The translations under genes were made by a program, and so were the position numbers. Shown here one piece after another: positions 24,900-63,497 of a stretch of 64,000 bases of DNA. The DNA is taken from NCBI RefSeq assembly GCF_901521055.1, contig NZ_CABEGA010000029.1, positions 1 through 64,000 of the forward strand, written 5' to 3'. Each line of letters begins with the position of its first letter. Position 1 is the stretch's first letter. Source of the DNA: Cellulomonas hominis (GTDB lineage: Bacteria; Actinomycetota; Actinomycetes; Actinomycetales; Cellulomonadaceae). Below the pieces are notes generated by a model. That model ran no database searches. It saw only the letters and a program-made list of their open reading frames with translations, and was not told the DNA's origin.

Positions 24900-24920
24900 G
24901 CACGAGGCGACTGAGATCCC

Positions 24921-25033
24921 GACTCCCTACGCCGGTGCTAACCGGATCAGGTGCGAGGGTCTGCGGTCCGTCCGCACTCTCAGCGTCGGTCGGGCGCCAC
25001 CTCGCGGTGGCTGTCCGGGACGCTCCCCTGTCG
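24921..25033 (-). ncRNA. TPP (thi-box) riboswitch
   Basis: Read on the minus strand, the leader contains the conserved parts of the TPP aptamer in order: ACAGGGGAGC, then GCTGAGAGTGCGG, then ACCCTCGCACCTGATC, then CCGGTTAGCACCGGCG and TAGGGAG. It sits about 87 bases upstream of thiB, so thiamine pyrophosphate should lower expression of thiBPQ. The variable P3 extension lies near 24985-25020. Confidence 0.95.
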
Positions 25034-25195
25034 TTCGCAGGCGAGAGTACACCGCCCGTGCGCACCCGGTCGGGGGCGACCGCCGGGCGCCCGTGACCTG
25101 CGGCGCGGCAGCCGCGGCGCTAGCGTGGGGCGAGCACCCGCCGGACGGCAGCCGCCGTCCGAGCCGTCCGCGCACAGCCCGACGCAGGAGGTCCC

Positions 25196-48806: not shown

Positions 48807-48823
48807 GACCGGCGTCGCGGGTG

Positions 48824-48837
48824 TGGGAGCGCTCCCG
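48824..48837. promoter_or_regulatory. CebR/CelR-type operator before the cellobiose phosphorylase gene
   Basis: TGGGAGCGCTCCCG differs by one end base from the 14-bp palindrome TGGGAGCGCTCCCA recognised by cellobiose-responsive LacI-family repressors CebR/CelR in Streptomyces and Thermobifida. It sits just after the candidate -10, which fits repression released by cellobiose. Confidence 0.88.
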
Positions 48838-48871
48838 CGCGGCAGAGCACCCGACACCGAGAGGCGCAACG

Positions 48872-51373
48872 ATGCGGTACGGCCACTTCGACGACGAGGC
48901 ACGCGAGTACGTCATCACGACGCCGCACACGCCCTACCCGTGGATCAACTACCTCGGCTCGGAGGAGTTCTTCTCCCTGCTCTCGCACACGGGCGGCGGC
49001 TACTCGTTCTACCGCGACGCGAAGATGCGCCGCCTCACGCGCTACCGGTACAACAACATCCCCACCGACGAGGGCGGCCGCTACTTCTACGTCAACGACG
49101 GCGGCGACGTCTGGACCCCCGGCTGGCTGCCGGTGAAGGCGGACCTCGACCACTTCGAGACGCGGCACGGCCTCGGCTACTCCCGGATCACCGGCGAGCG
49201 CGGCGGCCTGCGCGTCGACACGCTGTTCTTCGTGCCGCTCGGCGAGACCGCCGAGGTGCAGCACGTGACGCTCACCAACACCTCCGACGCCGAGAAGACC
49301 GTCAGCCTGTTCTCGTTCGTCGAGTTCTGCCTGTGGAACGCCCAGGACGACCAGACCAACTACCAGCGCAACCTGTCGCTGGCCGAGGTCGAGGTGGAGC
49401 TGGACGGCCCGAGCGGCTCCGCGATCTACCACAAGACCGAGTACCGCGAGCGGCGCGACCACTACGCCGTGTACGGCGTGAACACCCGGGCCGACGGCTT
49501 CGACACGGACCGTGACACGTTCGTGGGTCCCTGGAACGGGCTCGGCGAGGCGGCCGTCCCCCGCGCCGGCAGGTCGGCGGGCTCCGTGGCCTCCGGCTGG
49601 TACCCGATCGGGTCGCACCAGGTCGACGTCACGCTCGCGCCCGGCGAGAGCCGCTCGCTCACCTACGTGCTCGGCTACGTCGAGAACCCGCACGAGGAGA
49701 AGTGGGCGCCGGCCGACGAGGCCGCGGGCGTCAAGGCGCTGCAGGTGGTGAACAAGGAGCGGGCGCACGCGCTGCTCGCCCGGTTCGCGACCACCGAGCA
49801 GACGCTGGCGGCGTTCGAGGCGCTGCGCGCGTACTGGACCGACCTGCTGTCCACCTACTCGGTGCGCTCCACCGACGAGAAGCTGGACCGGATGGTCAAC
49901 ATCTGGAACCAGTACCAGTGCATGGTCACGTTCAACATGTCCCGCTCGGCGTCGTACTTCGAGACCGGCATCGGCCGCGGCATGGGCTTCCGCGACTCGA
50001 ACCAGGACCTGCTGGGCTTCGTGCACCTGGTCCCGGAGCGCGCGCGGCAGCGGATCATCGACATCGCGTCGACGCAGTTCCCCGACGGCTCGGCCTACCA
50101 CCAGTACCAGCCGCTGACGAAGCGCGGGAACAACGACATCGGGTCCGGCTTCAACGACGACCCGCTGTGGCTGATCCTCGGCGTCGCGGCCTACATCAAG
50201 GAGACCGGTGACACCGGGATCCTCGACGAGCCCGTGCCGTTCGACAACGAGCCCGGCTCCGAGGTCCCGCTGTTCGAGCACCTGACCCGCTCGTTCCGGT
50301 TCACCGTCGAGAACCGCGGCCCGCACGGGCTGCCGCTGATCGGCCGCGCCGACTGGAACGACTGCCTCAACCTCAACTGCTTCTCGACCGAGCCGGGCGA
50401 GTCCTTCCAGACGACCGAGAACCAGGCGGGCGGCGTCGCCGAGTCCGTGTTCATCGCCGCGATGTTCGTGCACATCGGCCCGGAGTACGCCGAGCTCGCC
50501 GAGCGCCGCGGGCTCACCGAGCTGGCCGCGAGCGCCCGCGCCGACGTCGAGGCCATGCGCGCCGCGGTGCTGGAGCACGGCTGGGACGGCGAGTGGTTCC
50601 TGCGCGCGTACGACTTCTACGGCAACCCGATCGGCACGGACGCGAAGCCGGAGGGCAAGATCTGGATCGAGCCGCAGGGCTTCGCCGTCATGGCGGGCAT
50701 CGGCGTCGACTCCACCGACCCCACCGCCCCGGAGCACGCCGCCAGCCCCGCGGTCCGCGCGCTGGACTCGGTCGAGGAGCACCTGGCGACCCCGCACGGC
50801 ATGGTCCTGCAGCACCCCGCCTACACGAGCTACCAGATCGAGCTCGGCGAGGTCTCCACCTACCCGCCCGGGTACAAGGAGAACGGCGGCATCTTCTGCC
50901 ACAACAACCCGTGGGTGATCATCGGCGAGACCGTCGTCGGCCGCGGCGAGAAGGCGTTCGACTACTACCGCCGGATCACGCCCGCGTACCGCGAGGACAT
51001 CTCCGACGTCCACAAGCTCGAGCCCTACGTGTACGCGCAGATGATCGCGGGCAAGGAGGCAATCCGGCACGGCGAGGCGAAGAACTCGTGGCTCACCGGC
51101 ACCGCGGCGTGGAACTTCGTGGCCGTCTCGCAGCACCTCCTCGGCGTGCGGCCCGCGTACGACGGCCTGGTCGTCGACCCGCAGATCGGCCCGGACGTGC
51201 CGTCGTTCACCGTGACCCGTGTGGCCCGCGGTGCCCGGTACGAGATCACGGTGACCAACTCCGGGACGCCGGGCGCGCGCGGCCGGCTGGTCGTGGACGG
51301 CGCGCCGGTCGAGGGCTCGACGGTCCCCTACGCCCCCGCGGGCAGCACGGTGCGCGTCGAGGTCACCGTCTGA
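48872..51373 (+). CDS. cbp: Cellobiose phosphorylase (GH94)
   Basis: An 833-residue enzyme that converts cellobiose and phosphate to alpha-glucose 1-phosphate and glucose in the cytoplasm. It begins [20 protein letters not shown] and contains [16 protein letters not shown] with the general acid at Asp494, [15 protein letters not shown], and [11 protein letters not shown]. From memory the sequence closely follows the characterised Cellulomonas enzymes, which are about 822 residues. The gene stands alone: no beta-glucosidase or sugar ABC genes are adjacent. Control by a cellobiose-sensing repressor is suggested by the operator at 48824. Confidence 0.97.
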
Positions 51374-51405
51374 CGCGGTCGTGCGGCGCCGGGGTCGTCC
51401 GGTCG

Positions 51406-51496
51406 GCACGAGGTCGTCACACGAGCACGAGGTCGTCACACGAGCACGAGGTCGTCACTCCTGCGTGACGACCTCGTGCCGAGGTGACGACCTCGG
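51406..51496. repeat. Palindromic repeat element, copy A
   Basis: Three tandem copies of GCACGAGGTCGTCAC at 51406, 51425 and 51444 (period 19). An inverted copy GTGACGACCTCGTGC follows (51465-51479), then a smaller hairpin (51480-51495, CGAGGT/ACCTCG). The third copy and the inverted copy form a 15-bp perfect stem with a six-base loop. Lies between the cellobiose phosphorylase gene and tRNA-Gly. A related copy is at 61420-61489. Confidence 0.92.
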
Positions 51497-51597: not shown

Positions 51598-51671
51598 GCG
51601 GGTGTAGTTCAATGGTAGAACTTCAGCTTCCCAAGCTGATAGCGCGGGTTCGATTCCCGTCACCCGCTCCA
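51598..51671 (+). tRNA. tRNA-Gly (anticodon CCC)
   Basis: Acceptor stem GCGGGTG/CACCCGC, D-loop TAGTTCAATGGTAGA, anticodon stem CAGC/GCTG with loop TTCCCAA (anticodon CCC, reads GGG), T-arm GCGGGTTCGATTCCCGT and encoded CCA end. TATGCT at 51561-51566 is a likely -10. Confidence 0.97.
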
Positions 51672-59933: not shown

Positions 59934-60026
59934 TCCGCCGCGTGAGGACGCGCCGTTCACCCGCACGGCGGCGCCCGTCCGGTGCGCCCGGGTGTGGTCG
60001 GGCCCGTGACGGGCGATGATGGGCGC

Positions 60027-61367
60027 GTGACCGACGCCCAGCCGCCGGCCCGGACGAGCGCGCCCCGCGGTGACGGGGACGACGCCCGGCACTTCGCCCT
60101 GCTCGCGCACCGCCTCGGCGGCTGCACCACGCTGCCCGAGGTCCACGAGGCCGCCGTCGTCGCCGCCCGGGACGTCCTGGGCGCCGGGGTCGCGGCCATC
60201 GCCCGCATCGAGCAGGACGACTGGGAGGTCCAGGCCGCCGAGCCGGCCGACGAGGTCGCCGCCGCGCAGGACGCCCTGAAGGACGGGGAGGCCGTGCGCG
60301 CCCTCGTCCGGCACCAGGAGACATGGCTCTCCGCGCCGGGCGACGACCCCGTGCGGCCGCACCCCGCGCTCGCCGCTCCCGTCGTGGTCAACGGAGACCT
60401 GTGGGGGCTGCTGTGCGCCGTCCGCGACGAGCGCGCGGCGGCGTTCACCCCCGACGACGCCGCCCGCGGCGAGGTGCTCGGCGCCCTGGTCGGCGCGCAC
60501 GTCGCCCGCCTGGACCTGGCCGAGCAGGTGCGGCACCTCGTCTCGGACGACGCGCTGACCGGGCTGAGCACGCGCCGGGTCGCCGACGAGGCCGCGCACG
60601 CCGCCATCGCGTCCGGCGACGAGACCTGCATCGTCATGTGCGACGTCGACGGCCTCAAGCGGGTGAACGACGAGCTCGGCCACGACGCCGGGGACGAGCT
60701 GCTGCGCAGCGTGGCCGGTGTGCTCCGCCGCGCGAGCAGCGGGCTGCCCGGGTCCACCGCCGCCCGCATCGGCGGCGACGAGTTCTGCATCGTGACGTCG
60801 GGGATCCCCCGGACGACCGTCGTGCAGGTGATGGACGCGACCGTCAACGACAGCGCGCTCCCGCACGGCGCCTCGCTGTCCTACGGCATCGCGTCCTCCG
60901 CGCGCGGCTCCCTGGGGGCCGCGCCGACGCCCCGGTCGCTGTTCCGGCGGGCCGACGCCGCGCAGTACCACGCCAAGCGCTCCCACGCGGCGGCGCGCGC
61001 ACGCCAGTACCGGGCCGACGACCCCGGCGCCGTGCTCAGCCGCACCGTGTCCGCCGCCGTCACCGCGCTCTCCGCGACCGGGCCCGCGGTGCTCACGCGG
61101 CTGTGCGCCCTGGCGGCCGCGACCACCGAGGCCATGGGCGGGTCCGGGTGGTCCGTCGCGCGCGAGCCCGGGCCCGAGGGCGAGGGGCGGGTGGTCGTCG
61201 CGCGCGGCGGGACGTCGTCGCTGCACGTGAGCGGGATGCGGCAGCTGGAGCTCACCCGCGGCCCGTGGACGGCCACCGTCGAGTCCACCCTGCCCGCGAC
61301 GGACGACGGCACCGTCGAGTCGACGCTGGACACGCTGGTGTCGCTGGCGGTGCTCGGCGCGTCCTGA
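60027..61367 (+). CDS. GAF-GGDEF diguanylate cyclase
   Basis: A 446-residue protein: GAF-like sensor (about 20-175), GGDEF domain (about 180-330) with an intact active site GGDEF (249-253) and DVDGLKRVNDELGHDAGDEL. It is followed by a further domain of about 100 residues. The allosteric RxxD site is not seen before GGDEF. It should make cyclic di-GMP from GTP in response to an unknown signal. GTG start at 60027. Confidence 0.9.
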   Translation: MTDAQPPARTSAPRGDGDDARHFALLAHRLGGCTTLPEVHEAAVVAARDVLGAGVAAIARIEQDDWEVQAAEPADEVAAAQDALKDGEAVRALVRHQETWLSAPGDDPVRPHPALAAPVVVNGDLWGLLCAVRDERAAAFTPDDAARGEVLGALVGAHVARLDLAEQVRHLVSDDALTGLSTRRVADEAAHAAIASGDETCIVMCDVDGLKRVNDELGHDAGDELLRSVAGVLRRASSGLPGSTAARIGGDEFCIVTSGIPRTTVVQVMDATVNDSALPHGASLSYGIASSARGSLGAAPTPRSLFRRADAAQYHAKRSHAAARARQYRADDPGAVLSRTVSAAVTALSATGPAVLTRLCALAAATTEAMGGSGWSVAREPGPEGEGRVVVARGGTSSLHVSGMRQLELTRGPWTATVESTLPATDDGTVESTLDTLVSLAVLGAS

Positions 61368-61419: not shown

Positions 61420-61489
61420 CGAGGTCGTCAGTCGTGCACGAGGTCGTCAGTCCTGCGGGACGACCTCGTGCCGGTGTGACGACCTCGGG
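61420..61489. repeat. Palindromic repeat element, copy B
   Basis: GAGGTCGTCAG units at 61421 and 61440 (period 19). The second is part of GCACGAGGTCGTC (61436-61448), which pairs with GACGACCTCGTGC (61459-61471), a 13-bp stem with a 10-base loop. A further GTGACGACCTCGG follows. Same architecture as copy A at 51406. It sits between two convergent genes. Confidence 0.92.
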
Positions 61490-61508: not shown

Positions 61509-63497
61509 TCAGCCGTGCAGCGGGAGCGTCAGGGTCGCCGGGGCGGCCGCGGCGACGCGCACCGGCACGCCCCAGTCCTGGGAGTTCAGGTGGCAGGCGG
61601 GGAACTCGATCGCGGGGTCGGCGTCGCAGCTGGCCGCGCGGGCCGTCACGTGGAGCACGCCCTCGCCGACCTCCGGGTTGATCCGCAGCGTCCGGGTGAG
61701 CGGCACGTCGTCGCCCGCGCCGTCGAGCAGCAGCTCCGGCGGGGTGGCCGACACGCGCAGCATCGTGGACGCCCCGTACCGGTCGTCGTACTTCTGCCCC
61801 GCGGCGGGGGTGAACACGACGTCGAGCGCGAGCTCCCCGGGCGCGATCTCGGTGACGGGGCGCTGCGTCCGGTGCGCCCCGGAGTCGAGGACCTCGCCGG
61901 CCAGCGTGGCCGGCAGGGCCACCCGGGTGAGCCGGTGCGCCGCGGACTCCACGACGAGCAGCGTCACGCCGCCCGCCTCGGGGTCGGTCTGCACGACGAT
62001 GCCGCTGGGCTCCGCGAGCCCCGTCGCGAGGGTGCTGACCTCCCCCGGCGTGCCGGCGTCGCCGGGCGCGAACCGGCGGACCGCGCCGTTGTAGGTGTCG
62101 GCCACCACCACGGAGCCGTCGGGCAGCACCGCGACGCCCAGCGGGTGCTGCAGCAGCGCCTGGTCGGCGGAGCCGTCCCGGTGCCCGAAGTCGAACAGCC
62201 CCTCCCCGACGGCCGTGCCCACGGTGGCGGCGGCGTACGCGTCGGCGGGCCCGGCGCGACCGGCGTCCGGGGCCTCGACGCCCGGGTCGATCCAGCGCAG
62301 CGCCGACACCTCGGAGTCCGCCAGCCACAGCCGGCCGCCCGGGGCGAGCGCGACGCCGGAGGTCTGGGCGAACCAGGCCTCGCGGGGGTCGCCGTCGACG
62401 AGGCCCTCGTTCATCGTCCCGGCGACGGGCTCGACGGCACCGGCCACGGGGTCGAACGCCCAGAGCTGGTGGTTGCCCGCCATCGCGACGAGCGCCGTGC
62501 CGGTCTGCGGGGACCACGCCACGTCCCACGGGGACGACAGCGGCACCGACGTGGCCGCCCGCGGCGCGCCGTCGGTGCGCCACAGGTCCGTGCGCCCGGG
62601 CAGCGGCGACGGCACGGTCGGCTCCCCGACCAGGTACTGCGCGCCCGTGCCCGCGACGGTGGTCACCCGGCCGTCCGACAGGCGCACCCCGCGCAGGGCG
62701 TGGTTCACCGTGTCGGCGACCAGCACGTCGTACCCGACCGCCGCGGCGACGTCCTCCGGCAGCAGCGCCAGCCCGTTCGGCTCACTGAACCGGGCGTCGC
62801 CCGGCTCGCCGTCCACCAGGCCGCGCTCCCCCGACCCGATGCGGCGCAGCAGCGTCTCGCCGTCGGCGGCGAGCTCCGCCACCGAGTGGTGCCCGGCATC
62901 GGCGACCAGGAACGTCCCGCCCGGCAGGGCGACCGCCTTCGCGGGGAACCGCAGCGTCCCGGCGGTCGGCTCCGGCGGGACGTACGGGCCGGCGCCGCGG
63001 TGCAGCGTGCCCTTCGCGTCGTGCTCGGCGACGAGGTCCTCGACCAGGCGCTCGACGTTGGTCTGGTGCCCCTCGCCGGCCATCTGCGCGACGACGTAGC
63101 CCTCGGGGTCGATGACGACCAGCGTCGGCCAGGCGCGGGCCGTGTAGGCGGACCAGGTCACCAGCTCGGGGTCGTCCAGGACGGGGTGGTGCACCTCGTA
63201 CCGCTCGACCGCCGCGGCCAGGGCCACCGGGTCGGCCTCGTGCACGAACTTCGGCGAGTGCACCCCGACGATCACGAGGACGTCGCGGTACCGCTCCTCG
63301 AGCTCACGCAGCTCGTCCAGGACGTGCAGGCAGTTGATGCAGCAGAACGTCCAGAAGTCGAGCAGGACGATCTTGCCGCGGAGGTCCGCGAGCGCGACGT
63401 CCTGGCCGCCGGTGTTGAGCCAGCCGCGGCCGACGAGCTCGGACGCGCGGACCTTCGGGAGACGGGTGCTGCTGGTGGTCACGGGGACAGTCAACAC
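61509..63497 (-). CDS. NHLRC2-like thioredoxin-NHL repeat protein
   Basis: A 662-residue protein. An N-terminal thioredoxin-like domain (about 15-165) has FWTFCCINCLHVL with CCINC at 52-56. NHL beta-propeller repeats follow (about 180-520; LPGGTFLVADAGHHSVAEL, LPDGSVVVADTYNGAVRRF), then a C-terminal beta domain. This order and the CCINC motif match NHLRC2. No signal peptide is evident. GTG start at 63497. Probable redox role; partner unknown. Confidence 0.92.
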   Translation of the reverse strand: MLTVPVTTSSTRLPKVRASELVGRGWLNTGGQDVALADLRGKIVLLDFWTFCCINCLHVLDELRELEERYRDVLVIVGVHSPKFVHEADPVALAAAVERYEVHHPVLDDPELVTWSAYTARAWPTLVVIDPEGYVVAQMAGEGHQTNVERLVEDLVAEHDAKGTLHRGAGPYVPPEPTAGTLRFPAKAVALPGGTFLVADAGHHSVAELAADGETLLRRIGSGERGLVDGEPGDARFSEPNGLALLPEDVAAAVGYDVLVADTVNHALRGVRLSDGRVTTVAGTGAQYLVGEPTVPSPLPGRTDLWRTDGAPRAATSVPLSSPWDVAWSPQTGTALVAMAGNHQLWAFDPVAGAVEPVAGTMNEGLVDGDPREAWFAQTSGVALAPGGRLWLADSEVSALRWIDPGVEAPDAGRAGPADAYAAATVGTAVGEGLFDFGHRDGSADQALLQHPLGVAVLPDGSVVVADTYNGAVRRFAPGDAGTPGEVSTLATGLAEPSGIVVQTDPEAGGVTLLVVESAAHRLTRVALPATLAGEVLDSGAHRTQRPVTEIAPGELALDVVFTPAAGQKYDDRYGASTMLRVSATPPELLLDGAGDDVPLTRTLRINPEVGEGVLHVTARAASCDADPAIEFPACHLNSQDWGVPVRVAAAAPATLTLPLHG

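Follow-up and report, generated by a model that had tools for sequence, protein, structure and literature searches.

Two intergenic sites lie 10 kb apart in the window, by which we mean the whole 64,000-nucleotide stretch of Cellulomonas hominis DNA analysed here, and the question raised by their common design is what kind of element they represent. The initial annotation described direct units spaced 19 bp, followed by an inverted copy and a second small hairpin, and proposed a REP-like dispersed element, a terminator family or a protein-binding array. The two copies and the genes around them are located as follows.

48821..51373, + strand: GH94 family gene, cellobiose phosphorylase-like, upstream of copy A
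51391..51399, + strand: decayed direct unit GGGGTCGTC, read from the sequence, exactly 19 bp before the first unit of copy A
51410..51494, no strand assigned: copy A, five 9-bp units with a 19-bp period, three GAGGTCGTC and then two GACGACCTC
51428-51495: core 68-nt element within copy A
51598..51671, + strand: tRNA-Gly(CCC), downstream of copy A
59982..61367, + strand: GAF-GGDEF protein gene, upstream of copy B and convergent with the next gene
61420-61487: 68-nt element of copy B
61421..61486, no strand assigned: copy B, four units with a 19-bp period, two direct and two inverted
61509..63497, - strand: thioredoxin/NHL-repeat protein gene, flanking copy B opposite the GAF-GGDEF gene, convergent

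The direct units of copy A (GAGGTCGTC) begin at 51410, 51429 and 51448 and its inverted units (GACGACCTC) at 51467 and 51486, in steps of exactly 19 bp, and GGGGTCGTC at 51391 prolongs this register upstream. In copy B, with the same 19-bp steps, the direct units are at 61421 and 61440 and the inverted ones at 61459 and 61478. These exact positions bear out the shared design that had been annotated, with three direct units in copy A and two in copy B, and the inverted stems measure 15 bp in copy A and 13 bp in copy B, matching the 13-15 bp given. The second small hairpin fared less well: the inverted unit assigned to it is present, but it pairs with the outer direct unit, and each copy is one nested palindrome with no separate hairpin. 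Both copies fold as RNA far better than shuffled sequences (z = -7.4 on the + strand and -7.6 on the - strand for copy A; -7.5 and -8.4 for copy B). With at most one mismatch, ACGAGGTCGTC occurs 31 times in the window against 4.6 expected. The two sites do lie at the 3' ends of genes, copy A after the GH94 gene, its first intact unit beginning 37 bp past the stop codon, and copy B after the GAF-GGDEF gene. The context of copy A is tandem and non-convergent, the GH94 gene and the tRNA-Gly both being on the + strand. Among known RNA families, a search of the window at Rfam gathering scores returned only tRNA and one TPP riboswitch (24907-25039, - strand).

The annotation had also allowed that the two matches were due to chance or local duplication, with no further copies in the genome. 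In the 4.07 Mb C. hominis genome (G000), the inverted pair occurs 36 times exactly, compared with 0 for a reversed control pattern, and a covariance model derived from these occurrences recovers 40 strong full-length copies and two weak ones. The same architecture also recurs beyond this species and beyond its genus. With so many copies genome-wide, and nothing found in its favour, the idea that the two sites resemble each other by chance or through local duplication is refuted. The element is about 68 nt long and consists of GAGGTCGTC units every 19 bp, the final two inverted, with the consensus CGAGGTCGTCA-N5-GCACGAGGTCGTCAGTCCTGCGGGACGACCTCGTGC-N5-TGACGACCTCG. The outer units are 94-100% conserved even though they were absent from the search pattern, and the linkers vary freely. 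Covariation in the element alignment does not exceed that of shuffles, and constraint on structure alone, as for a terminator or ncRNA, was rejected on this ground, the invariant pairs being uninformative either way. Since the units are invariant, the linkers free and covariation absent, the alignment suggests that the unit sequence itself is recognized, by a protein, and the annotated protein-binding array is thus plausible.

Gene contexts, assigned with home-made codon-based gene calls, show that the G000 copies are mostly intergenic. Of 30 classified copies, 18 lie between convergent genes, although gaps of this type account for about 15% of the intergenic sequence (p = 2e-8); in a second genome, G021, the count is 9 of 20 against about 15% expected. 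Copies in a tandem context are mostly near the 3' end of the upstream gene. The G000 assembly comprises 105 contigs, and on four of them (C12, C14, C19 and C49) a copy is found about 150 bp or less from the end. This suggests that short-read assemblies are interrupted at the arrays and that the copy numbers are lower bounds. At one site (near position 2778 of C35:11400-16900), at least four direct 19-bp units precede the inverted ones, a tandem unit expansion. Two copies (C22:44727 and C49:119) have nearly identical flanks, so one of the two belongs to a larger duplication and is no independent insertion.

A search of other Cellulomonas genomes returned the same element in further species, and the same four-unit 19-bp layout, with species-specific linkers, also occurs in Sanguibacter suarezii, a strain labelled Cellulosimicrobium and related MAGs. 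The spread is patchy: 8 of the 82 genus genomes have at least eight copies of the pattern, and the others have 0-4. A REP-like dispersed element was therefore right in kind: the 40 copies are mostly intergenic, palindromic, associated with 3' ends and patchy across species.

Two of the 40 G000 elements (C14:85-152 and C14:1185-1252) flank a gene outside the window, C14:96-1082, and the downstream array overlaps the final codons of this gene. In Sanguibacter suarezii and in a Cellulomonas MAG, one gene likewise lies between two elements, and the three bracketed genes are mutually homologous, the C14 product being 68% identical to that of the MAG. The C14 protein is predicted to comprise an AbiEi-antitoxin-like part, which contains a winged helix, at the N terminus and a PD-(D/E)XK nuclease domain of the Vsr/I-Bth0305I type at the C terminus (model pLDDT 91.5). 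The best PDB fold matches are Rv2827c, which is of the AbiEi type, the catalytic domain of I-Bth0305I (TM 0.74 on target) and Vsr (TM 0.53 on target); these matches are domain-level, with E < 0.001 for the best one only. Residues D238, E249-x-D251-G, E271 and R274, the expected Vsr-like active site, are invariant across 37 relatives. PADLOC AbiEi models match the G000 protein with a best E of 9.6e-10, Pfam AbiEi_4 is found in 15 of the 37 relatives, and the MTES_1575 REase and AbiEi models agree with the fold. A sequence-profile search against solved structures gave no matches. The neighbours at the Cellulomonas locus, named by eye, are nagB or DUF2200 on one side and DUF3039 on the other. Phage and plasmid records nearly lack the gene, with one weak match each, and at this locus it seems to be vertically inherited and no ordinary mobile gene. 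A second paralogue in G000 (C15:24966) is without clear matched arrays.

Of the 82 genus genomes, 70 contain a relative of the gene, as do 141 of the 197 genomes sampled across Actinomycetia. To compare the surroundings of these relatives, we counted the 8-mers shared by the two flanks of a gene and called the flanks matched at a score of at least 6; this score was devised after the first examples had been seen and was applied unchanged to the controls and the class-level sample. Matched flanks are found for 43 of 71 genus relatives (p = 6e-27) and for 12 of 29 relatives in the class-wide sample (p = 4e-9), in each case compared with 6 of 235 ordinary genes. Mismatched flank pairs score at least 6 in 5% of cases, and about 40% of relatives are without a matched repeat by this crude score. 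The flank motifs vary from gene to gene and include GAGGTCGTC, GAGTTCGCC, CGAGATCGG, CTACGAAC, GGTAGTCG and others. At the orthologous locus, where the gene lies between nagB/DUF2200 and DUF3039, both flanks share a motif in most of 12 species, and the motif is species-dependent. Similar proteins tend to have similar motifs (Mantel rho 0.31, 0 of 2000 permutations), so that motif and protein diverge together; since the shared ancestry of the whole locus feeds this correlation, it describes pairing and not specificity as such.

The dispersed copies can also be compared with the motifs of the genes in the same genomes. G021 contains 24 CGAGATCGG palindromes and G022 contains 36, and the nuclease genes of both genomes carry CGAGATCGG; there are 14-24 further copies in G005, G049 and G065 and 0-1 elsewhere. 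G055 contains two dispersed subtypes, GTTCGGCA and GTTCGGTG (also given as GAGTTCGGCA and GAGTTCGGTG), and each of these motifs also flanks one of two genes in that genome. Six GTTCGG copies in G049 match one of its genes (L188), and the dispersed copies in G062 match the motif of its own broken gene. At that locus (G062:C1:1347443-1351985), the nuclease gene has a stop codon, and the flanking arrays and about nine dispersed arrays of the same motif persist, like orphan REPs. The correspondence has exceptions. Dispersed GAGGTCGTC copies in G049, G005 and G029 differ from the exact motif of the gene at the nagB/DUF2200-DUF3039 locus, and the MAG G056 has dispersed GAGGTCGTC copies and no detectable gene. 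GAGTTCGTGA brackets its genes and is hardly dispersed (3 and 2 copies); dispersal as a rule for every motif is ruled out, as this one is nearly restricted to its genes.

Orthologous sites show turnover. The convergent gap that holds copy B in C. hominis contains a different array family in G005, G022, G049 and G065 and yet other arrays in G016 and G071; in six species it measures only 1-18 bp. Species with 92-95% identical flanks have different families at one site. Between G056 and G057, whose flanks are 97-98% identical, the number of units shifts in 19-bp steps. No transposition event, target-site duplication, clean insertion junction or clean empty site was seen at the orthologous sites compared; one site in G062 (L123) that had been a candidate for a clean empty site was rejected as a collapsed array.

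On the whole, copies A and B probably belong to a REP-like population of non-autonomous palindromes whose partner, the bracketed C14 nuclease, propagates them. The AbiEi-like part of the protein would bind the GAGGTCGTC units, the nuclease would nick or cut at paired units or at an extruded hairpin, and repair would then copy the element into new intergenic sites. Copies would persist chiefly at 3' ends, where harm is least, and units would be gained or lost afterwards in 19-bp steps. Each nuclease subfamily would have its own unit sequence, and the two would co-diverge. The known binding of inverted repeats by AbiEi proteins supports the binding of the units, and it also admits a regulatory role.

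In such a role, the AbiEi-like protein would regulate genes or organize the nucleoid, and the arrays would be the sites to which it binds; those beside the gene would be operators, the dispersed ones would form a regulon or serve an architectural function, and no movement would be involved. AbiEi-type antitoxins bind inverted repeats at their own promoter, four of them in the case of Rv2827c (PMC7319586), and the upstream array lies between the nuclease gene and its upstream neighbour. The recognition of the units by a protein, suggested by their invariance, the variable linkers and the absence of covariation, is also consistent with regulation. However, the dispersed copies are located at 3' ends or between convergent genes and not at promoters, a second array follows the nuclease gene, and orthologous sites carry other families or nothing. 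A pure regulator would also have no need of the invariant nuclease residues, and we consider this explanation unlikely. The annotated terminator family holds as far as position and hairpin are concerned, given the convergent placement in G000 and G021 and the very strong hairpins on both strands. If the arrays were bidirectional terminators or stabilizers of mRNA 3' ends, spread by gene conversion or selection, the presence of an own motif around each nuclease gene would nevertheless be left unexplained. The hairpins of copies A and B are not followed by a T-rich tract, sequence is conserved and not pairing alone, and the sequence families are gene-specific. Many orthologous sites are near-empty, and several species have the same convergent gap, of 1-18 bp, with no hairpin. 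A dedicated terminator is thus quite improbable, and we rank a role of the nuclease in propagating or maintaining the repeats as most likely, followed by a regulator or nucleoid role and then by a terminator.

Classical REP/REPIN elements moved by a RAYT, an HUH tyrosine transposase, would account for tens of intergenic palindromes near 3' ends and for a dedicated gene with repeats on either side, which is the arrangement in REPtrons (PMC6006769, PMC8049555). The initial annotation had accordingly pointed to a linked REP-associated transposase, but a search for Y1_Tnp (PF01797) gave 0 matches in the G000 genome and was positive in 5 of 14 control genomes; what the element brackets instead is the gene of the AbiEi-Vsr-type nuclease. 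A RAYT is contradicted unless it lies in an assembly gap of the 105 contigs, and with a consensus that has no GTAG tag and a bracketed gene of unrelated fold, this origin is very hard to credit.

REP-like repeats are known chiefly in Proteobacteria and depend on RAYTs. A REPtron consists of dispersed palindromes and a chromosomal RAYT gene bracketed by its own palindrome, with an own repeat family for each gene and mainly vertical inheritance (PMC8049555, PMC6006769). The Cellulomonas system resembles it in the tens of intergenic palindromes per genome, in a gene bracketed by the same palindrome, in the own family of each gene, in the orphan repeats of gene-less genomes and in mostly vertical inheritance (PMC8049555, PMC6006769). 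In contrast, its enzyme combines an AbiEi-like domain with a predicted Vsr/I-Bth0305I-type nuclease in place of the HUH tyrosine transposase, the foot of its consensus palindrome bears no tag of the GTAG (or GGAG) type, and its units repeat with a 19-bp period, are nested in sets of four or more and occur in Actinobacteria. The lack of Y1_Tnp matches and of the GTAG tag, together with the unrelated fold of the enzyme, places the system outside the REPtron family. The CGTC-tagged REPs were described in five phyla without Actinobacteria, and no dedicated gene was found for them (Di Nocera 2013; PMC3733652). They share with the present elements dispersed palindromes, a CGTC-containing motif and the lack of a RAYT, but are shorter single palindromes (PMC3733652); the elements described here have a dedicated flanked gene, and other families of the Cellulomonas-type system are without CGTC. 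The N-terminal similarity to AbiEi and Rv2827c, antitoxins of AbiE type IV toxin-antitoxin systems, is seen by PADLOC, by Pfam models and in the fold. Unlike in AbiE, however, the AbiEi-like part is fused to a nuclease, the repeats lie on both sides of the gene and are dispersed, and no toxin gene was recognized beside the nuclease gene at the loci read, where neighbours were named by eye. Finally, the predicted catalytic domain resembles that of the Vsr-like homing endonuclease I-Bth0305I in its fold and conserved acidic residues, although the gene here is outside any intron or intein and is bracketed by palindromic arrays.

A broader proposition, for which we see the chances as even, is that the AbiEi-Vsr-type nucleases, common across Actinomycetia, form a separate repeat-propagating class without HUH transposases, each nuclease maintaining or spreading its own family of 19-bp-iterated palindromes. 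No earlier description of this pairing of nuclease and palindrome was found in the open-access full text of PubMed Central. Such a class would stand beside REP-RAYT as a product of convergence, and it would provide a role for a large multi-copy gene family. The propagation of the repeats by the C14 nuclease would give a high-GC actinobacterial repeat family a partner from an enzyme superfamily unrelated to RAYT, and would offer a candidate role for a common gene family annotated merely as AbiEi-like or DUF559-like. The many motif-gene pairs would amount to a large natural collection of matched protein-DNA specificities. As a warning for annotation, a palindrome located between two convergent genes of an actinobacterium may be an element of this kind and not a dedicated terminator.

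The start of contig C35 (positions 1-117) is 99% identical over 117 bp to the interior of the nuclease gene and runs into the DUF3039 gene; this fragment is probably an assembly chimera, with C35 adjoining C14. A further palindrome family, CGACGCGTCGAGC...GAGTAC, brackets another nuclease clade (the flanks of L190 and L195; L231, L232, L239 and L240) and fills the copy-B gap too, in four species.
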